Shown here piece after piece: positions 3,557 to 53,210 of a DNA stretch of 64,000 nucleotides (within the stretch, counting starts at the first letter, position 1; the number at the start of each line of letters is the position of its first letter). The stretch is from contig JARVGJ010000001.1 in assembly GCA_029762595.1 (NCBI GenBank), forward strand, positions 228,081-292,080. Reading direction: 5' to 3'. Source of the DNA: Methanolobus sp. Lineage in GTDB: Archaea; Halobacteriota; Methanosarcinia; Methanosarcinales; Methanosarcinaceae. The notes below the pieces were generated by a model, which was not told where the DNA came from, did no database searches, and worked only from the letters and a program-made list of their open reading frames with translations. Made by a program: the position numbers and the translations under genes.

Positions 3557-4327
3557 CTACAGATTACTGATGACAAATGGGAAAAGCTGTACAGAGAACG
3601 CAATTAATAGCAAGACGGATGATAGCATATAATCAGCCATTACCATCCTAAAGTCTGTGAAAAGCCGTGGATTGCCCGTATAACCCCTGGATAACATCGA
3701 TCTGTAAACCTTCTCCCCCCTTTCATAGCTTTTTACAAGGAGCATACCAATCATATTCCCAATTATATTCAAACTATACTGATTCAGCTTCATTTTGAAT
3801 CCCCTTGTATACATGGATCTCTTCATAGTGAAAAACTCCCCAAGGAGTACAAAGATGTATCTGTAAGAAAAAGTGATCATCTGAATCAGGATATTTGGTA
3901 TTTTCAGAGAATACATGGCTTTTATGATCTCATCGAACCTGCTTGTGGCAAGCATGAGAAATGCAAGGATAAGTGATGCTATGGCCCTTAAGAAAATGAG
4001 TGCGCCTATATAAAGTCCTTCAATGGTGATACTGACATATCCAAGTCCAATGAGAGGACTGCCCTGGACAGTGAAAGCCATCACCACAATTATCATAAAT
4101 ATAAAAAGAGCTGGGAATTTCAGTGATATGTATACAAAGTGAAGAGGTATCCTTGATATGAATATAAGGATAATTGAAAAAATAACAGCTAACAGTGCAA
4201 CTACCAGCTCGGTTATAAAGGCGAATGAGAATATCAGGATAGTGAATGTTATCAACTTTGCCCTTGGATCGAATCTGTGGAGAATGGAATCCAGTGTTGA
4301 ATATGTATCTATCACAGGGTAGCTCAT
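3557..4327 (-). CDS. cbiQ: ECF-type cobalt/nickel transporter transmembrane (T) component
   Basis: DSILHRFDPRAKLITF N-terminus and ERGEKVYRSMLSRGYTG coupling motif of CbiQ/EcfT. Confidence 0.88.
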   Translation of the reverse strand: MSYPVIDTYSTLDSILHRFDPRAKLITFTILIFSFAFITELVVALLAVIFSIILIFISRIPLHFVYISLKFPALFIFMIIVVMAFTVQGSPLIGLGYVSITIEGLYIGALIFLRAIASLILAFLMLATSRFDEIIKAMYSLKIPNILIQMITFSYRYIFVLLGEFFTMKRSMYTRGFKMKLNQYSLNIIGNMIGMLLVKSYERGEKVYRSMLSRGYTGNPRLFTDFRMVMADYMLSSVLLLIAFSVQLFPFVISNL

Positions 4328-4348
4328 TCAAATACACCTTTACATCTT

Positions 4349-4804
4349 TTATTTTTGCTGTTTTATCCTTCTTGCAGATATAAGCATACCCAGGCCTGCA
4401 AGTCCAAGCATATATCCAAGGCCTGCAACTATCTTTGTGGCCTTTGAATCCCCGGATGAACTATATAACTGAGATGAGCCCGAACCAACGTTTATTACAG
4501 CCTCACTCTGATGACCCCAGTCATCAAATATCTTCACCCTATATTCTTCATACCCGGGGACAGGTTCAAAATAATACAAGCCGTTATTGTCAAGATTGTC
4601 CTGAATATGCAATTCCTCATTACCCTGCCCATCTATCAGATAAATTTCCACAATTGCACCTGGAATTGGGTTACTCTGGTCAAAAGATCCTTTAACTTCT
4701 ATGCTCTGAGAGACATCCAGATGAGCCGCATGTGAAGATGCAGGCACTACAAGAAGAGCAGATACTGCACAGAATATTATAAACAGGTTTATCCATCTAT
4801 TCAT
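4349..4804 (-). CDS. Secreted/membrane-anchored accessory protein of Ni/Co ECF transporter (NikL/CbiN-like position)
   Basis: N-terminal signal sequence, Ig/carboxypeptidase-regulatory-like domain (SNPIPGAIVEIYLIDGQGNEE), C-terminal TM helix; sits between cbiM and cbiQ. Confidence 0.55.
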   Translation of the reverse strand: MNRWINLFIIFCAVSALLVVPASSHAAHLDVSQSIEVKGSFDQSNPIPGAIVEIYLIDGQGNEELHIQDNLDNNGLYYFEPVPGYEEYRVKIFDDWGHQSEAVINVGSGSSQLYSSSGDSKATKIVAGLGYMLGLAGLGMLISARRIKQQK

Positions 4805-4819
4805 TTTCACTAACACCTC

Positions 4820-5440
4820 TTATTTTTTCATCTTTTTAGGAAGGAGTTCTGGCTTTACCTTTGCAAGGTAAGTGACAATTGCCCCTGTGAGTATACCCTC
4901 GATCACTATCAGTGGAAGGTGGGCCACCGCTGCAACCCGGGCCAGGCCTGAGAACTCCTGTCCTGTAGATAACAGCACAAATACAAGTAAAATAGCAGCA
5001 AGTGCAATTGCAAATGCACCACACATAAAGCCAAGTGTTTTCTCAGATATTCCACGTTCATAGCCTTTCATGAACAGATAATATGCAATCATTGCAGGTA
5101 TTCCCACCATTGCTGCATTGACACCTATGGTGGTTACTCCTCCGTGCTGGAACAGGAAGGCCTGCAGAATAAGACCAACAAACATTGAAACATAGGCAAT
5201 AGGACCAAGTACTATGCCTATAAGGCCATTTAACATGGGGTGAACACTGGTTGGCCCTACAGGTATGTGGATAAGTGATACAACAAAAAAAGCAGCCGTC
5301 ATTACTGAGAATTTTGGTATTTGTTCTACTATATCATATTTCTTCATCGTTGATCTTATAGTCAGAGCAATGAAAAATAACGTTACTATCCAGCCAGCAG
5401 CAATTACCGGTGCCGATAAAACTCCATCAGAAATGTGCAT
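4820..5440 (-). CDS. cbiM: CbiM/NikM-like substrate-specific component of Ni/Co ECF transporter
   Basis: MHISDGVLSAPV N-terminus; VGPTSVHPMLNGLIGIVLGP; FQHGGVTTIGVNAAMVGIP. Confidence 0.92.
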   Translation of the reverse strand: MHISDGVLSAPVIAAGWIVTLFFIALTIRSTMKKYDIVEQIPKFSVMTAAFFVVSLIHIPVGPTSVHPMLNGLIGIVLGPIAYVSMFVGLILQAFLFQHGGVTTIGVNAAMVGIPAMIAYYLFMKGYERGISEKTLGFMCGAFAIALAAILLVFVLLSTGQEFSGLARVAAVAHLPLIVIEGILTGAIVTYLAKVKPELLPKKMKK

Positions 5441-5531: not shown

Positions 5532-6563
5532 TCATTTTCTTCTTGTTAGGAAGGCAACAGCAAGCAAGCCTGCTACAGCAAAGAGCATTTCAAAACCAGG
5601 TGTGCTTTTTACAGGATACTCCTCAACTGCTTCAACTGGCGCTTCATTTGTGTCCACCCATTCATTGAAAAGTATTTCAAAAGACTGGAAAGCTGCCTGC
5701 AGGTCATGCAGATCGTGGTGGATATGGTCTGCATGATGTTCATGAGATTGCGGGACCATGTCCTCAAGACCATGGGCAGGACCACTGATCTGGACTATAA
5801 GTGCTTTGAGATTGGAAAGTTCTGCTTTTGCTTCTTCAGATTTACGGTCATCAATATAGTGTCCCATATCATCTGCCGACCTGTCGATATCGTGGGCAAG
5901 GAGATGGACCTCTTCTGCTACATCCCTGACATCATCGGAAAGTGATTCATCGTCGGCAATATGCTCTGATTCATCATGAATATCCTGAGCAAGACCTCTG
6001 ATATCATTAATGATATCCCGTAGTTTATCATTGGAATCCATGTCATCTTCGTCTGTGTAGACCTGATCGGCAAACTCATAGTTCCCAACCTCTTCATTGA
6101 AAAGTATTTCAAAGGACTGGAAAGCTTTCTGCAGGTCATGTAGATCATGATGGATCTGGTCTGCATGATCTTCATAGGATTGTGGTACCATATCCTCAAG
6201 ATCATGGGCAGGCCCGCTTATCTGGACTATAAGTGCTTTGAGGGTAGCAAGTTCTGCTTTGGCTTCATCATATTCCCCATCACCCAAATATTGTCCGACA
6301 TCATGTGCCGACCTGTCGATATCATGAGCAAGAAGATGGACCTCTTCTGCCACATCCCTGACATCAACAGGTAGTGACTCATCATCGGCGATGTGTTCTG
6401 ATTCGTCATGAATATTCTGTGCGATGTTTCTTATCTCATCCCTTACGTCTGAGATCTCACCGCTAATTGCCTGTGCTCCTTCATCCGGATGTGATGATGC
6501 AGGTACACAAAGAGCAAGCATCAAAACACATAATATTGCAAGTATTTTTGTTCTAATCTTCAT
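5532..6563 (-). CDS. PGF-CTERM surface protein with two ~144-aa His/Asp/Glu-rich tandem repeats
   Basis: Likely start MKIRTKILAILCVLMLALCVPASSH (signal peptide); two near-identical HDESEHIADDESL...HHDLHDLQ.AFQSFEILFNE units; C-terminal STPGFEMLFAVAGLLAVAFLTRRK (PGF-CTERM sorting signal). Confidence 0.75.
   Translation of the reverse strand: MKIRTKILAILCVLMLALCVPASSHPDEGAQAISGEISDVRDEIRNIAQNIHDESEHIADDESLPVDVRDVAEEVHLLAHDIDRSAHDVGQYLGDGEYDEAKAELATLKALIVQISGPAHDLEDMVPQSYEDHADQIHHDLHDLQKAFQSFEILFNEEVGNYEFADQVYTDEDDMDSNDKLRDIINDIRGLAQDIHDESEHIADDESLSDDVRDVAEEVHLLAHDIDRSADDMGHYIDDRKSEEAKAELSNLKALIVQISGPAHGLEDMVPQSHEHHADHIHHDLHDLQAAFQSFEILFNEWVDTNEAPVEAVEEYPVKSTPGFEMLFAVAGLLAVAFLTRRK
5661..6420. 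repeat. 432-bp-period tandem duplication inside the PGF-CTERM gene
   Basis: ttcattgaaaagtatttcaaa starts at 5661 and again at 6093 (432 bp apart); flanking sequence is highly similar. Confidence 0.8.
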
Positions 6564-7127
6564 AGATATCACTTCTGTAGTTAGATCTATTATTGCCATG
6601 TGGGCATTAAGTATGGATATAAATGCACATAATATACACATATATACTATATGCCCATGAATGTAAGTATTCATGCATATAAACTTAATACACTAGAGAA
6701 TGTAATGGAAGTACTTATCATTTAAAAGTTTAATCCTATAAGTAAAAGCTATTCTGTATTAACACACATATATACACTATAAGAGAATATATATAGTTAT
6801 ATGCCTCCTGCATCTTAGAATAGGATACAACGATACAACAAGATTATTGTTCAGAGAAACGTAATAACAATGAGAAAATATAATATACGAATGCATATTT
6901 AAAACTATTGTTTTACAATTATGTAATAAAAGACTACTAATTATAAATACTCTTGCAATTTACCTATTAAACACGGATCCAGGGTTATTACAGATCTTGG
7001 AAAATACATTTATTGAAATCCTCTGATCTTAAATCATTGAATGAGAGAATTATAAAACACTATTTAATAGAATAGATATCATTGGAAATGTGGGGTTTTA
7101 TAGTCAAGGGAATAAGAGAATACGTAA

Positions 7128-11369: not shown

Positions 11370-11792
11370 TCATGTTTTCTCTGCAGGAAGAGCCGTATTT
11401 AGCTTGACATAATTAACACCTTTAAGTGCCATTGTTCTTTCAGCAACGGCTTTTACCTCTTCACCCTCACCATCAAGTATGATCACTTCAAGACAATTAT
11501 CATGGTCAAGATGGATGTGGACGGAAGACTTAATAATGTGAGAGTAATCATGCTGTATCTCGGTAAGGGCACTTGAAAGGCCGCGCTTTGTATGATCATA
11601 TATCAAAGTAATAGTGCCTACTCGCCTGCCTTTTACATCACTCATCCATTCATAATGGGTAATATAGTTCCTGATCGCATCCCTTATTCCCTCTGAACGG
11701 GAAGAATAGCCCCTCTGCTCGATTATAGTGTCAAATTTAGTCAGAAGGTTTTCGGGAAGCGATACTCCAATACGCATAAGTTCCTGTTCCAT
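11370..11792 (-). CDS. nikR: Nickel-responsive regulator NikR (ribbon-helix-helix + ACT-like domain)
   Basis: [38 protein letters not shown] and Ni-site [17 protein letters not shown]. Confidence 0.93.
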
Positions 11793-11937
11793 ATGATTCA
11801 CCTATATCAATCACTATTATAATAACATATAGTATGCATTACTGACCTGCTGATAATACATAAATTAAGACATTAATAATTATAGAACATCTTATATAAA
11901 GGATGGCAACCTATGCCCACTAAAAAGGAAGATATAG

Positions 11938-30037: not shown

Positions 30038-31375
30038 TCAGCATGAACCAGCCCCATTATCCTTTTCAGCTTCACCTGTGACAACACCAACATGAAGGTT
30101 TATTCCACTCTTTTCAATATATCCGTTTATCCGTTCAAGGGCATGCTCAACCATTCCCCCATGGGTCAGTATAAGACAGCGTTGGCCTGAAAGGGCATTC
30201 AGGATAGACCGGTCTATAACACCAGCAGTAACATCAAGATAGATCTCATCCCGTTCTGCAATTATCTTACTTTTCTTGCCCATAGCGCCCACACATTCGA
30301 TATCATCCCTCTTGATTATCTTCAGGATCTCCTCATTATCATACTGGGAAGTATCATATATGGCTATTGAGCCTGCCCTCAGGGCCTTGCGGTCCATCTC
30401 TACAATAGCAAGACCATCTTCATGAATATGAAGGACCTTACAGTTTGCCGCTTCATACATAGAGTCCTGGGCGAATTCACCGTAAAGTATACCAAGGTTT
30501 ATGGTTTCACCTTCCTTTACTTCAGGAGGAACATCGACCCACATGAGGTGTTGCGGTCTCAGGGTATGAACAAGATCAGGAATATCCCTGGGAGGCTTTG
30601 AGACACGGGCTATACCCCGTTTTCGGATCTCATCGTATATCTCAAGGGTTATTGGTCTTTTAAGGTAGGCCTCCTTGAGCTTTTCTGTCTGCCTGAAGAT
30701 CTCTTCCGGAGTACCCTCACTGAGTACCTTCCGGTCATTCATGAGAAAAACATAATCTGCCCAGCCGTAGGCCAGATCCACATCATGAGTTGATATTATA
30801 ATCGTCTTACCAAAATAATTCAGTTCGTTCAGGAGGTCCATAACCTCATCTGCCCCCACAGGATCAAGATTTGAAAGAGGCTCGTCCAGAACAATAACCT
30901 CAGGGTCCATGGCAACCACTCCTGCTATGGCAACCCTCTTTTTCTGCCCTCCGCTTAAGTGATGAGGGGGCTTGTCCTTTAAATGGGTCAGTCCCACATA
31001 TTCAAGCGTATCGTGAACTATCTTTTCTACCTTGTTTTTTGGATAATCCAGATTTGTAGGACCAAATGCCACATCCTGATAGATAGTTGGAGCAAATATC
31101 TGGTCATCGGAGTTCTGGAACACGATACCTACACTTTTTCGTATTTCCCGCAGGGACCTGGAATCATATTTCACAGGTTTACCATGGAAGAGCACCTCGC
31201 CTTTCAGAGGACGGAAAGTACCATTAAGCATCATGAAAAGAGTGGATTTCCCCGAGCCGTTACGACCTACAAAGGCAATCTTCTTTCCTTTTTCAATTTT
31301 GATATTGATGTCCTCAAGTGCCAGAGTACCATCGGGATAAGAGTAGCTGAGATTCTTTGTTTCTAAAATAATCAC
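30038..31375 (-). CDS. cbiO: Cobalt ECF transporter ATPase with ~165-aa C-terminal extension
   Basis: Walker [51 protein letters not shown]; ATPase ends ~aa 250-275, with an extra C-terminal domain. Confidence 0.92.
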
Positions 31376-31384
31376 TGTTTCACC

Positions 31385-32167
31385 TCAAATAAGCGACATT
31401 CCCCTTGTGAACCAGAATACTGTGATCACTATCGTAAAATATGCGCCTGTCAGCAGGATTTCCGGCATTTTCACAGGCCTTTTCTCATCATACATTATCA
31501 GCTTTCCGTCATAACATCTTGAATTCATGGCCAGGTAAAGCTTCTCACCCTGTTCCCACGACCTTATGAAAAGATTTGTCCCAAGCATCACCATGGACCT
31601 GAAAGAGGTCCTGAAATCCCGGTATCCAAGGCGTACTGTCTGAGCATATTTCACCCCCATGGCCACATCAAGGAAAACAAAGATGTAACGATACATCATC
31701 ATTGCTATCTCTACAAAAGAGTCCGGTAATTTTGCCTTCTTTAAGACTGCAAATAGTTCGATCACCGGGGTTGTCAGCGACAGGAAGAACAGGCATGACA
31801 TACCACCAAAGGTTCTTGCAAGAATAAGAAGGGCCATATTCAGTCCTTCGGGGTTCACTCCAAGGGTATATCCAAACAGACTGAAACTAAAGATATCAAC
31901 CCCTTCACCAAAAAAGAATGCTATAACTATGATGCTCACAAGCACAAATCCTGAAGGCACAGAAAGTATTTGAAGATAGAATTTTACAGGTATCCTGCCA
32001 AAATATATGGTTGCAAAGCTCATACACAATGCTATAGTAAAGGGCACAAGTGGAGATGATGCTGAAACACCTACAAGGATCCCGAAAGCCACGATAGCTA
32101 ATTTAAGCCAGTTGTTCCTGGACCTTAGCGGACTCAATATTGCATAATCATCCAGAATGTATGTCAT
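31385..32167 (-). CDS. cbiQ: Cobalt ECF transporter T component
   Basis: SWEQGEKLYLAMNSRCYDG motif; polytopic. Confidence 0.9.
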   Translation of the reverse strand: MTYILDDYAILSPLRSRNNWLKLAIVAFGILVGVSASSPLVPFTIALCMSFATIYFGRIPVKFYLQILSVPSGFVLVSIIVIAFFFGEGVDIFSFSLFGYTLGVNPEGLNMALLILARTFGGMSCLFFLSLTTPVIELFAVLKKAKLPDSFVEIAMMMYRYIFVFLDVAMGVKYAQTVRLGYRDFRTSFRSMVMLGTNLFIRSWEQGEKLYLAMNSRCYDGKLIMYDEKRPVKMPEILLTGAYFTIVITVFWFTRGMSLI

Positions 32168-32403
32168 TTTTCAACCACGTTATTGGATAGATATCAAAAC
32201 AAATTAAGCTTTATTAATTTTCGTGCAAGATAATCAGAAGATAAGAGACGGTACTTTATACATAAACATATCGTTAGAGAGCTAAAATATGTGTAATACA
32301 TAGGGGATACAAATAAGGGAACAAAAATAATAAATAAATAAATAAATAAAATACAAATATTACAAATAAATTTGTGTGCTCAATGAGGAACACACGCATT
32401 ATA

Positions 32404-32691
32404 TTACTTGTTCTTCTCGCCTTTGCCCTTATAGTAACCAATGGTATAACCAATAACTACCGCACCAAAAGCAGCCTGGAGGGCAAAGAGCAGGCTTTCA
32501 GTTTCACCGCCGGGAGGTTCAAAGCCAATCCCGCCAAACCATGGTTCATAATCAGGATTGATCTCCGCTATAACATCTTCTGCTTCACCGTCGGCACCAC
32601 CGAATTCAGAATCCGGGTTTGATGCCACACCATAGAAGAACTGAGCTGCAAAGAGTATCACCACAATAGCTACAATATACTCCAGTTTCAC
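32404..32691 (-). CDS. cbiN: Cobalt transport protein CbiN
   Basis: Two TM helices flanking an extracellular loop GADGEAEDVIAEINPDYEPWFGGIGFEPPGGETESLLFALQAAFGA. Confidence 0.88.
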   Translation of the reverse strand: MKLEYIVAIVVILFAAQFFYGVASNPDSEFGGADGEAEDVIAEINPDYEPWFGGIGFEPPGGETESLLFALQAAFGAVVIGYTIGYYKGKGEKNK

Positions 32692-33383
32692 TGCATTGCC
32701 TCCCTGAGTTTTGTAGCCTTGTCTATACTCAGCACTTTAAGATCGACCAGTACATCGCTCTTGATCTGTATTACATATTTCATTATAAGTGCTGTAAGAG
32801 CACCTTCCATTATTGCAAGTGGTACCTGTGTTGTTGCAAACACAGCACCAAAGGCCAAAAATGATGCCAAAATACCGCCTTCCGGTGCAGGGAAGGCTAA
32901 CGCAAGTTGCAGCGATGTAAACACATAAGTCACCCAATTAGCAATTGCCGTTGCAAGGAAAACATTCAGATAGAAGTTCATTCCCGACCTTGATGCTGCC
33001 CTGTAGAACAAATAAGCAACCAATGGACCTATTATACCCATGGATGCAACATTTGCACCAAGGGTGGTTATACCCCCATGGGCCAGGAAAAGGGACTGGT
33101 ATAAGAGAACGATCAATCCAAGGACAGCTGTGATCGCCGGCCCAAAGAGAATTGCTGCCATGCCGGTACCGGTGGGGTGGGAGGAACTTCCGGTAACAGA
33201 CGGAAGCTTAAGCGACGAAAGAACAAATATGAATGCCCCCGCAACAGCTAAAAGAGGTACTACCTCACGCCTTTCATTTACGAGTTTGTTCAACCTGTAC
33301 ATACCATATAATATCACCGGGATGGAGAATACAAACCATGCCTGCCACCATGGGGATGGCAGAAAGCCCTCGAATATGTGCAT
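32688..33383 (-). CDS. cbiM: Cobalt transport protein CbiM
   Basis: MHIFEGFLPSPWWQAW; SSSHPTGTGMAAILFGP; LAHGGITTLGANVASMGIIGP; cbiN start overlaps its stop region. Confidence 0.93.
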   Translation of the reverse strand: MHIFEGFLPSPWWQAWFVFSIPVILYGMYRLNKLVNERREVVPLLAVAGAFIFVLSSLKLPSVTGSSSHPTGTGMAAILFGPAITAVLGLIVLLYQSLFLAHGGITTLGANVASMGIIGPLVAYLFYRAASRSGMNFYLNVFLATAIANWVTYVFTSLQLALAFPAPEGGILASFLAFGAVFATTQVPLAIMEGALTALIMKYVIQIKSDVLVDLKVLSIDKATKLREAMQ

Positions 33384-33657
33384 TAATTATCACCTGCCGT
33401 TTTCATTACAATGCATAATCAACTAAATTTGATTTATGCAGAGGATGTAATATGTAATTATAGATAAATATAACGATTCGCTCAAAGCGTAATTAACCTT
33501 ACCTATAGCAATAACACATATATAACTTTATGACAAAAGTAATATACCTGCTAAGTAAGTGCTATCATCCAATAAATCAGAAAGAAGAGCATATATAAAT
33601 GAAATATGATGAACAGAATTAATTGAGCTAGCACAAAATAAGCAAATGTCCTGAGAA

Positions 33658-34239
33658 CTACAGGACCACTAAAATGCAGTACATGTCGGAATGATGTTCA
33701 GGTGGATTGTTTACGGTGCCGCATATGGAACGCTCATAAGGATAACCTATATCCTCATAGATACATATCCTGGCATCGACACCGATTTCCCCCAGGACCG
33801 AAGCAACTTCCTTTGGACCAAATGTATCTGCAGGCAGCAGGAATATATTCTTGCGCAGGCCAATCTCCCTTGTAAGTGCCTCCCTTGCTGGTGCGGGGTC
33901 TCTGCCATGTGCCGTGATCATGGCCAGGTTTGACATCTCAACATGGAAGCGTGCACATGCGGCCTGTATGGACGATATCCCTGTTACTACCCTGTCCTTT
34001 TCAGTGGCAAATTTCCCAAGTCCTGAGAACATAGGGTCACCTGTAGACAAAACAACAGCATCCTCAGGCAAAAGATGAAGGTTCTTGTAATCCTTTATTA
34101 GATGAGCTTCGCATTTTATGAAATCTTCCGCAAGTTCGATGGAACGCCTTGAACCATAGACCACCGGAGCACTGCTTATTACATCTATGGCCTCCTGTGT
34201 CATCATCCCTGGGCCAACACCAACGCCCACAATTATCAT
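33658..34239 (-). CDS. cbiE: Cobalt-precorrin-7 (C5)-methyltransferase
   Basis: [48 protein letters not shown]. Confidence 0.92.
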
Positions 34240-35252
34240 ATACCCTCCCCGCTGTCCATCAGCACGGTCCCGTCCCTGCCAACAACAACTATACGGGCAC
34301 CTTTTGCTTTTTCCACCGCCATTTCAAATGCCTGCTTAAGACGCTGATTCTGAGGATCAAGCTCAAGCATTTCGACCACCGTGGCAAAACCACTGTCCTT
34401 TAGCATGTCAGGGTTGCCCCATTTCAGTACAAGGCCCGGCAGCCCGCAAATGACAACATCGCCATGAGCCGCACTAAGAGCTTCTGATATACGACTTCCT
34501 GCAAGCACCACAGTATGATCCGGGAAGAGCATTGTGGAATACCTGATGCCAATTCTCCCGGTAGTCAGTACGACCTTATCAGAATCCCTTATCAGGTCAC
34601 CTTTCATCTCACCAAGATGATCATTCCACGGCTCGACAAAACCGGTGGTACCGAGGATGGAAATGCCATCCACTACACCAATACGACTGTTAAGGGTCTC
34701 TTTTGCTATTTCCTTGCCATTTGGAAGATAGATGGTCACTTCAGCACCCTTCATTCCAAGCTCCTTAACAGCCTCTGAAATGGATGCCCTTATCTGCTCC
34801 ATGGGACGTGGATTGATAGCAGGATGACCTTTTTTGGATTCAAGTCCGCTGCGTGTAACTATACCTATACCCTCACCAGCGTAGACAGTAATACCTTCTG
34901 CCTCCCTGGCATCTGCAACGAACTCAAGTCCTCTTGTAATATCAGATTCGTGATCATTATTGATTTTCACTGCAACAGCATGCCCTTTACTTCCTGTTAC
35001 ATCCATTTCTGCACGAAGCCCAACAGGCGTAGGTACGGAAACATGATCCACATCACCAGCAAGTGACATAACTGCAGCCTTTGCAGCAAGTGCTGCAGTG
35101 GTTCCGGTAGTATATCCTCTCTTAAGCACGGAGCCATCGCTCAGCACCACAAGCATTCCACTCTTAATACCTGCTTCCAGCTCATCACGTTGCATTTTTG
35201 AACTATCCAACCACTCATCAGGGATCCTGGATTTATTTACCGGGTCTATCAT
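34236..35252 (-). CDS. cbiD: Cobalt-precorrin-5B (C1)-methyltransferase
   Basis: [55 protein letters not shown]. Confidence 0.95.
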
Positions 35253-51463: not shown

Positions 51464-53011
51464 CTACCTGCGTTTACATTTACCGATAAATGCTGCTGCA
51501 AAAAGACCTGCAAGTCCCACAAGCAGTTCAAACCCGGGTGTAGGCTGGGCACTTTCCTGAGCAGCTCCATCAATAGCTGAGTCCATAGCTTCTATTTTTT
51601 CGAGCTCTTTACCCGAGATGGCTCTCTCACCATATATCATCGGATCACCTTCATAACCCAGGGCAGCAAAGTCCATGTTACCTCCGTCCAGGTGACAATC
51701 CTTGCAGGCAAGAGCATATTCTTTAGGTGCAACTTCATGGTTTATGCTTTCATAATAAGTGGTTTCCACGAATTCATATTCACCACTGTATGGCATACCC
51801 ACATAATCCATGCCTGCCCTGACAGCCCGGTCCCAGTCGTAAGTTGCCCAGTATGAATCCTCGCCGCCAAAAAGATCAGGGATCAGCAGGTACTGGTATT
51901 GTGCATCGCTTATCTGCTTTGCACGATGGATCTTGAAAGGATATATCTTGGAATTTGCATCATACCTGTCACCAAGAGGAGTGGAAAGGTCTGTAACTCC
52001 CTGCGGGTCAATCTTGTCCCCGAGATAATACTTCTCAAAACTCCCATTGAACCAGGCGTAGGTAGGAACAACATTCATACCCCATACAAATTCTCCTTTC
52101 ATCATATTATATGTGGCTTTTCCATATTCATCCACAGGTATGGTATCAACGTCCTGCCCGGCTTTGGACCAGTCCCAGTACATCTTTGTCGGAACCTCGC
52201 GGGCAAAGGAGGGTATGTGACATGTCTGGCAGGCTATGGAATCCGAATGGCCGTTAAGGCGGTCACTGTATTCACCCTGGTGAGGAGTATCACCGTGACA
52301 GTCAGAACACTCAACCCTGCATTCAGATCCGGGTATGCCGGCAAATCTGCCCGCTACATTGTGCGCAGTTGTCTTATGACAGTTCTGGCACTGGAAATCC
52401 ATACCACCCATATGAACGTCAAGTTCCCTTGAAGGGTCGTACAATGCAGATGACATATCCCCATGCTTTACATTATCGCCCCCACCTCCAAAGAAATGGC
52501 AATTGCCACCACATGTTAACCGTGATGGACTGCCCACACTCCGGGCCACGGCCAAAAGGTCTACAGAAGGATCAACGGCTCCTGCGCCTGTGGGTATCTT
52601 CTTGTATGTGCCTGTGGTCTCATGGCATACTACACAGTCTATATTCGATGCATTGCTAAAATCAAAAGTCTTGTCTTCCCACCCATATCCTGTGTGGCAG
52701 GAAGTACATCGCGGTTCATTGGATGCCAGAGCAACGCAGAAATTGTTAATAACCGTCCTCTTACCCAATTCCATAAGTCTTGCTTCCTCACATCCGCATT
52801 CAGCACATGTAGTCCAGAGCCAGTGGGTCGAGTTAAGCATATCTGCAGCCTGTTCAGAGTGACATTTGATACAATCCGCAGTCACATCCTGCCCAACATC
52901 ATAAGGACCTTCGAGGAAAGAATGGTTCAGATACGAGGCTGAACATGAGAAGGACAGAAAGATCACGCAAGCCAGCAAGCAGCAAAAACCAATGTATTCA
53001 GTACGTTTCAT
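51464..53011 (-). CDS. PGF-CTERM-anchored octaheme cytochrome c, tetrathionate reductase (OTR)-family-like
   Basis: CIKCH, CTSCH, CVVCH, CGGNCH, CQNCH, CSDCH, CQTCH, CKDCH; GGGGDNVKHGDMSSALYDPSRELDVHMGG; signal peptide; C-terminal PTPGFELLVGLAGLFAAAFIGKCKRR. Confidence 0.88.
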   Translation of the reverse strand: MKRTEYIGFCCLLACVIFLSFSCSASYLNHSFLEGPYDVGQDVTADCIKCHSEQAADMLNSTHWLWTTCAECGCEEARLMELGKRTVINNFCVALASNEPRCTSCHTGYGWEDKTFDFSNASNIDCVVCHETTGTYKKIPTGAGAVDPSVDLLAVARSVGSPSRLTCGGNCHFFGGGGDNVKHGDMSSALYDPSRELDVHMGGMDFQCQNCHKTTAHNVAGRFAGIPGSECRVECSDCHGDTPHQGEYSDRLNGHSDSIACQTCHIPSFAREVPTKMYWDWSKAGQDVDTIPVDEYGKATYNMMKGEFVWGMNVVPTYAWFNGSFEKYYLGDKIDPQGVTDLSTPLGDRYDANSKIYPFKIHRAKQISDAQYQYLLIPDLFGGEDSYWATYDWDRAVRAGMDYVGMPYSGEYEFVETTYYESINHEVAPKEYALACKDCHLDGGNMDFAALGYEGDPMIYGERAISGKELEKIEAMDSAIDGAAQESAQPTPGFELLVGLAGLFAAAFIGKCKRR

Positions 53012-53210
53012 ATTATACCCCATAAATGATGTGAATCCAACCTTAATAATATGGGTGAAAAATAATCCTATTTAAATATGGGGTGAAGCTGTGGAAATTT
53101 TGCAATTACACGGCGTTAACAAACTATCTTTTTGATACTTAGAAGAACGCATGGACAAAGCAAATTCAAAAAAAGAGGACCCGACAAAAATAGACAAAAA
53201 TAAAAGAAGG

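Follow-up and report, generated by a model that had tools for sequence, protein, structure and literature searches.

Accessory proteins of nickel and cobalt importers, together with one group of metal-storing bundles, are the closest described systems to the protein analyzed here. NikK (DUF4198, PF10670) is secreted, is encoded by the first gene of an M-L-Q-O operon, and carries a PGF-CTERM tail in the archaea considered here, and its bacterial DUF4198 counterpart is a proven nickel binder with a Kd of 18 nM via an N-terminal His (PMC12537917). CbiN and NikN, which are accessory subunits of the Ni/Co ECF importers CbiMNQO and NikMNQO and are encoded beside M, are small membrane proteins with two TM helices. 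The anglerase domains (Ang-1/Ang-2) of HupE/UreJ permeases are an extracytoplasmic metal-binding part dedicated to a nickel permease (PMC12537917). Lastly, Csp copper storage proteins are four-helix bundles with repeated metal ligands.

The window, a 64,000-nucleotide stretch of Methanolobus sp. DNA, contains a gene (hereafter, X) that opens an importer operon in the manner of NikK. Many X proteins likewise begin with His after the signal peptide, but X has no sequence relationship to NikK, is all-helical and repeated, and is expected to hold its ligands within the domain, whereas NikK uses a histidine brace. Unlike CbiN and NikN, X is predicted to be extracellular and anchored, and belongs to an M-L-Q type operon. 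The anglerase domains differ in being fused to the permease, in their unrelated sequence, and in their N-terminal His, while the Csp proteins use Cys ligands for Cu(I), are mostly cytosolic, and share no sequence similarity with X. Our analysis indicates that X is probably an interchangeable cell-surface subunit of a NikKMLQO-type ECF importer that would serve to capture metal, and this capture subunit is probably previously undescribed.

The X gene and its operon

The following features of the window are referred to throughout:

5532..6563, minus strand: X gene, the operon's first gene, for a predicted secreted, PGF-CTERM-anchored, two-domain His/acid-rich protein of 343 aa
6492..6563, minus strand: predicted signal peptide, residues 1-24, read from the sequence
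6075..6479, minus strand: helical domain 1, residues ~29-163 (AF2 model and conservation)
5643..6047, minus strand: helical domain 2, residues ~173-307, same fold as domain 1
6088..6387, minus strand: DNA repeat core, domain 1 copy (spacing 432)
5656..5955, minus strand: DNA repeat core, domain 2 copy (84% to 6088-6387)
5535..5603, minus strand: PGF-CTERM archaeosortase-A sorting signal, residues 321-343 (PF18204, 1.2e-9)
4820..5440, minus strand: NikM/CbiM, ECF S-component (PF01891, 1.4e-54; tree)
4349..4816, minus strand: NikL-like accessory protein with signal peptide and one C-terminal TM helix (NF058648, 2.5e-10, below the curated cut-off)
3557..4327, minus strand: NikQ/CbiQ, ECF T-component (PF02361, 1.6e-38; TIGR02454 above cut-off)
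30038..31375, minus strand: ATPase (CbiO) of the CbiMNQO cluster, a candidate to serve X-M-L-Q as well
11370..11801, minus strand: candidate NikR nickel-responsive regulator (PF08753, 2e-33; NF002169 above cut-off)

The X open reading frame occupies 6563 to 5532 of the minus strand, and its product begins with MKIRTKIL; an alternative in-frame ATG lies upstream at 6674 and would give a protein of 380 aa. The initial annotation had described a signal peptide and His-acid motifs, and both are present in the sequence, with HDESEHIADDESL and HEHHADHIHHDLHDL each found in X. Cleavage is predicted between PASS and H, as read from the sequence, such that the mature protein would begin with His. The C-terminal PGF sorting signal was likewise borne out, scoring above cut-off against Pfam PF18204 (1.2e-9, 38.2 bits, cut-off 18.8) and TIGR04126 (1.9e-6, 27.4, cut-off 24.5), and comprises a PGF motif, a TM helix, and a basic tail. 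Archaeosortase A processes PGF-CTERM proteins, leading to their attachment at the cell surface, and this enzyme (ArtA) is encoded in the window genome (TIGR04125, 1.6e-77, over cut-off). Together, the motif and the presence of ArtA suggest that X is an archaeosortase A substrate that is presumably anchored at the surface. Elsewhere in the window, a minus-strand ORF of 519 aa (51464-53023) shows a weak match to X (32%, 1e-4), probably due to a common PGF-CTERM tail.

X had also been described as two ~144-aa repeats with a 432-bp period. The 300-nt repeat core is 84% identical between its copies at a spacing of exactly 432, which confirms the period, while the domains themselves measure ~135 aa. 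The accompanying description of X as recently duplicated was overstated, since the two window domains share 71% aa identity, no higher than the 73% between domain 1 and its nearest relative, and the domain tree shows a recurrent pattern. X proteins contain one (L077, L129-L132), two, or three (L033, L083) domains. The two domains of Methanohalobium and Methanohalophilus are 86-95% alike (Methanohalophilus, as a label on loci, is an inferred genus), and the two in Methanococcoides are old and cluster by position. Judging from these sequences, the repeat has undergone recurrent duplication or homogenisation in the family, and its two window copies do not stem from a fresh event.

X and cbiM are separated by 91 bp, and X, NikM/CbiM, the NikL-like gene, and NikQ/CbiQ follow one another in that order on one strand, so the initial placement of X upstream of, and co-oriented with, cbiM-accessory-cbiQ holds in gap, order, and strand. 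Since the gene upstream of X (7128, a PfkB kinase) is divergent, X is the operon's first gene. The M, L, and Q components of a NikKMLQO-type transporter are thus all present, with CbiM and CbiQ above cut-off and NikL below it. No gene for the O component (ATPase) was found within the window X-M-L-Q operon, and no cbiO adjoins it; the operons of L033, L080, and L083 also do without their own O, and most other X operons have one. The sole Ni/Co-type ATPase gene found in the window genome is the CbiO at 30038-31375, in the cobalamin cluster, which X-M-L-Q presumably borrows, and in Methanosalsum the orthologous cbiO is divergent and adjoins X-M-L-Q. The window CbiO has a long C-terminal extension (445 aa versus ~300 in NikO-type ATPases) that is kept in relatives.

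A scan for NikR-type or palindrome-type operators upstream of X found none in the window. An inverted repeat, GTTAYC-N4-7-GRTAAC, precedes the start of X by ~110-165 bp in loci resembling those of Methanohalophilus, Methanosalsum, and Methanococcoides (L033, L038, L072, L074-L076, L078-L080, and L083; p<=0.025 versus shuffles). Since this repeat is absent upstream of the window X, we make no regulatory claim. In place of the GTTAYC-type repeat, the nikMN of L102 bears a perfect TGTTAC-N14-GTAACA.

Relatives of X and the NikK slot

The search of one repeat by HMM and structure that had been suggested at the outset returned no known family. Sequence searches of Pfam, NCBIfam, and the PDB gave nothing significant for the X domain, the only feature of the window protein above cut-off being PGF-CTERM, and the domain model returned nothing at E<=0.001 in Foldseek. 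The plasmid collection contained no X match, and our searches turned up neither a family model nor a solved relative, and no publication on X. Matches of X to SMC, Rad50, and MCP proteins were coiled-coil noise, and proteins of 1160-1230 aa at E>1e-5 in the genome searches were discarded as SMC-like coiled coils. The weak Foldseek matches reflect ordinary four-helix similarity to designed metal/heme bundles, Avd, and Csp (6ei0, TM 0.60/0.70, E 0.57, not significant).

A search of 112 Methanosarcinaceae genomes with domain profile A1 identified strong family members in 18, with two weaker matches left out. Comparison of the X positions with those of every CbiM gene in these genomes, together with a reading of the loci, showed a copy directly upstream of NikM in all 18, as X-M-L-Q or X-M-L-Q-O. 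Phylum-wide, X stands immediately before M in 25 X-M-L-Q(-O) loci from 25 genomes, and one further locus reads M-L-X-Q-O (L138). X-M-L-Q-O operons occur in other families as well (L127-L132 and L089), and in G063 the operon is divided between two contigs, with an identical X sequence at the end of each. Loci with names are Methanosalsum sp. (L043), Methanohalobium sp. (L045), Methanolobus vulcani B1d (L046), Methanococcoides (L047, L048), Candidatus Methanolliviera (L049), and Methanophagales (L050). X identity among linked loci ranges from 25 to 71%, and linkage to M at as little as 25% identity is far beyond chance. The initial interpretation would have been refuted by the lack of a metal-transporter neighborhood in relatives, an outcome that did not occur.

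Some family members have no adjoining metal importer (L034, L035, L041, L081, L082, and L084-L086). Two of these, in L085 (1-4355) and L086 (7744-12300), are proteins of ~1450-1520 aa with N-terminal X domains that have lost the second His triad, and no importer lies nearby. Solo NikM genes without Q or O are present at L091, L092, and L093, in G020 and genomes resembling Methanosalsum, none of which has CbiMN; these NikM proteins would have to share the one Q and one O encoded with X.

Related genomes have NikK-M-L-Q-O in place of X-M-L-Q-O, with a DUF4198 NikK (PF10670, 5.6e-26 and 4.3e-28) that has a PGF tail as well (scoring over the Pfam cut-off in L101 and just short of the NCBIfam one in L039). 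Within Methanosarcinaceae, such operons with a PGF-CTERM NikK were found in L095, L098, L101, L105, and L107, and in L089 a NikK-L-M-Q-O operon and an X-M-L-Q-O operon lie side by side. In the M tree, the X-linked and NikK-linked proteins group together in a single clade (97/99) that excludes both the CbiM proteins paired with CbiN and the NikM proteins paired with NikN. X itself did not match PF10670, and hhalign against six archaeal NikK proteins gave a probability of 0.1%, with no detectable relationship, and we rejected X as a NikK homolog. By operon position, X is NikK-like in its predicted role and is not a NikK. Most Methanosarcinaceae and importer-linked X proteins have His after the likely signal-peptide cleavage (following A-x-A or S-S), the exceptions at the predicted N-terminus being Q or S in L036, L071, and L039.

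A 2009 survey of Ni/Co transporters listed archaea with NikMNQO-type systems only (PMC2667541). Our findings add that archaea also have NikKMLQO-type operons, together with an unrelated second occupant of the capture slot. In L129, a further PGF-CTERM-like, His-rich protein (3597-4610, G331), which is unrelated, has two repeats (DHWHGRLPVV ... SHGDHVHV), and has no match in Pfam or NCBIfam, is encoded before another NikM-NikL pair within a cobalamin operon. It may be a third protein to fill the NikK slot, homologous to neither of the other two.

Domain fold and conserved histidines

AlphaFold (AF2) predicted a single X domain as a four-helix bundle with high confidence (pLDDT 92.2, pTM 0.86), with helices at 8-32, 39-67, 71-98, and 101-140 (A2 numbering, which equals domain numbering + 1). 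The full-length model had a pTM of 0.44, at which the arrangement of the domains is not interpretable. The principal histidines, in domain numbering, are H24 in helix 1, H48 and H52 in helix 2, H92 in helix 3, and H110 and H114 in helix 4, such that each helical hairpin contributes one three-His set of the form H...HxxxH and each domain has two sets. In the window protein, these are H52/H76/H80 and H120/H138/H142 in domain 1, and H196/H220/H224 and H264/H282/H286 in domain 2.

Across 65 aligned domains, His occupies 7 of the 16 top conserved columns, compared to 7.5% of residues overall. Of the six principal histidines, 90% are retained in importer-linked domains and 75% in unlinked domains, counts that are not independent of phylogeny. 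Loss of the histidines in homologs, the other outcome named beforehand as adverse, was therefore not seen. H48 and H52 are nearly always kept, and H92/H110/H114 are largely lost as one unit: they are gone together from domain 1 of the Methanococcoides/M. vulcani type, from the orphan L032/L035/L082 subfamily, and from the giant L085/L086 proteins, and are partly lost in L133, L135, and L136. All importer-linked X proteins have at least one domain with complete H92/H110/H114. H24 is missing from all domains in four importer-linked loci of other families, one of which, L130, is also without H52. By a helix-face estimate, H48, H52, H92, H114, and E45 point to the polar side and away from the core, an orientation more in keeping with exposed HxxxH clamps or an interface than with a site buried in the core.

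Metal specificity and alternative roles

Methanogens depend on nickel (F430) and cobalt (corrinoids), two metals in short supply in the sulfidic waters where they often live. The window genome has two CbiM genes, the second in a canonical CbiMNQO adjoining cobalamin genes (30038-35252), and three CbiQ-type genes, the third in another ECF cluster at about 44-47 kb. A search of this genome found no DUF4198/NikK, NikMN, NiCoT, or SBP_bac_5 protein. Because methanogens require nickel for F430 and no other importer of a known nickel type was found, X-M-L-Q is likely the nickel importer of this organism, and nickel is, from gene content, its most likely metal.

The same role could instead be exercised for cobalt, with X-M-L-Q(-O) feeding cobalamin synthesis, in the window organism too, alongside CbiMNQO. 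In Methanosalsum (L033, L080, L083), X-M-L-Q stands where cbiMNQ would, between cbiO and cbiE/cbiD of the cobalamin locus, and in L128 and L129, X-M-L-Q-O lies co-directionally inside a cobalamin operon (cbiF/G/H/C/D/E ... X M L Q O), followed in L129 by cbiA; in these lineages, cobalt is the likelier metal. An orphan X in L041 (137-3143), with all six histidines and no importer gene, has cobS and a gene for a cobY-like NTP transferase in its vicinity, and there is precedent in bacterial NikKMLQO operons located near B12 genes (PMC2667541). However, the window genome already has CbiMNQO, a cobalt assignment would leave it without a nickel importer of known type, and X-linked M groups in the NikM(K/L) branch. 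We regard cobalt as unlikely for the window. Whether X delivers metal at all is a separate question, as its very acidic, His-rich composition, its one to three repeated domains, and its orphan paralogs without importers would also suit a surface buffer or detoxification sink that is co-regulated with the importer and stands outside the delivery path. The fixed first place in an import operon, the replacement of NikK, and the association of distant members with FeoB all point to uptake, and make a sink still less likely than cobalt. Least plausible, to the point of being highly improbable, is a structural envelope protein or coiled-coil spacer whose His and acidic residues follow from halophilic composition and whose neighborhood is incidental. 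Many carriers are probably salt-tolerant genera, the composition of X is acidic, and giant multidomain members exist in other families (L085, L086), but it is specific His columns, not His generally, that are conserved at 25% identity, the linkage is 18/18, and a compact bundle is predicted with confidence.

Iron is hinted at in other relatives. FeoB adjoins X-type proteins in the ANME-1/Methanolliviera-like L087, L134, and L139, where the L139 FeoB genes are assigned by sequence similarity only, and FeoA is also present in L134 (PF02421, 1.8e-51 and 5.8e-48; PF07664 and PF04023 above cut-off). In L087, the X domain is followed by a segment resembling an FmdE-type (HGHLCVCGA) domain. Since some relatives are encoded in cobalamin operons and others next to FeoB, different lineages may handle different metals, and the X family looks like a general divalent-metal capture domain.

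The surface Ni/Co capture role feeding CbiM/CbiQ that was originally proposed for X is supported, given that both adverse outcomes that could be computed were negative. According to this capture model, X would be exported through its signal peptide, its PGF-CTERM tail would be processed by archaeosortase A, and the protein would stay on the external face of the membrane beside the importer. The three-His sets H24/H48/H52 and H92/H110/H114, with nearby conserved acids, may bind Ni2+ or Co2+ from the medium. Metal would then pass from X to NikM, the S-component, with NikL helping, and NikQ and a presumably shared CbiO would drive uptake. In this way, X would substitute for the unrelated NikK (DUF4198), which does the same job in related methanogens. 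Points that weigh against the model are the polar-side placement of several conserved histidines, the four importer-linked loci without H24, the family members with no adjoining importer, and, as regards nickel, the operons set among cobalamin genes.

A broader reading, which we offer tentatively as a possibility, is that X represents a hitherto unrecognised archaeal family of modular, surface-anchored divalent-metal capture domains, with two three-His hairpin sites per bundle, that are swapped between importers. These would serve ECF Ni/Co importers in methanogens, displacing NikK, and FeoB in the ANME-1-like L087, L134, and L139, with specificity set by the importer served. Metal capture at the periplasm-less archaeal surface is so far poorly known. 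If X binds metal, it would constitute a non-homologous replacement of the substrate-capture subunit in an ECF importer and would provide a small, repeatable Ni/Co-binding bundle.
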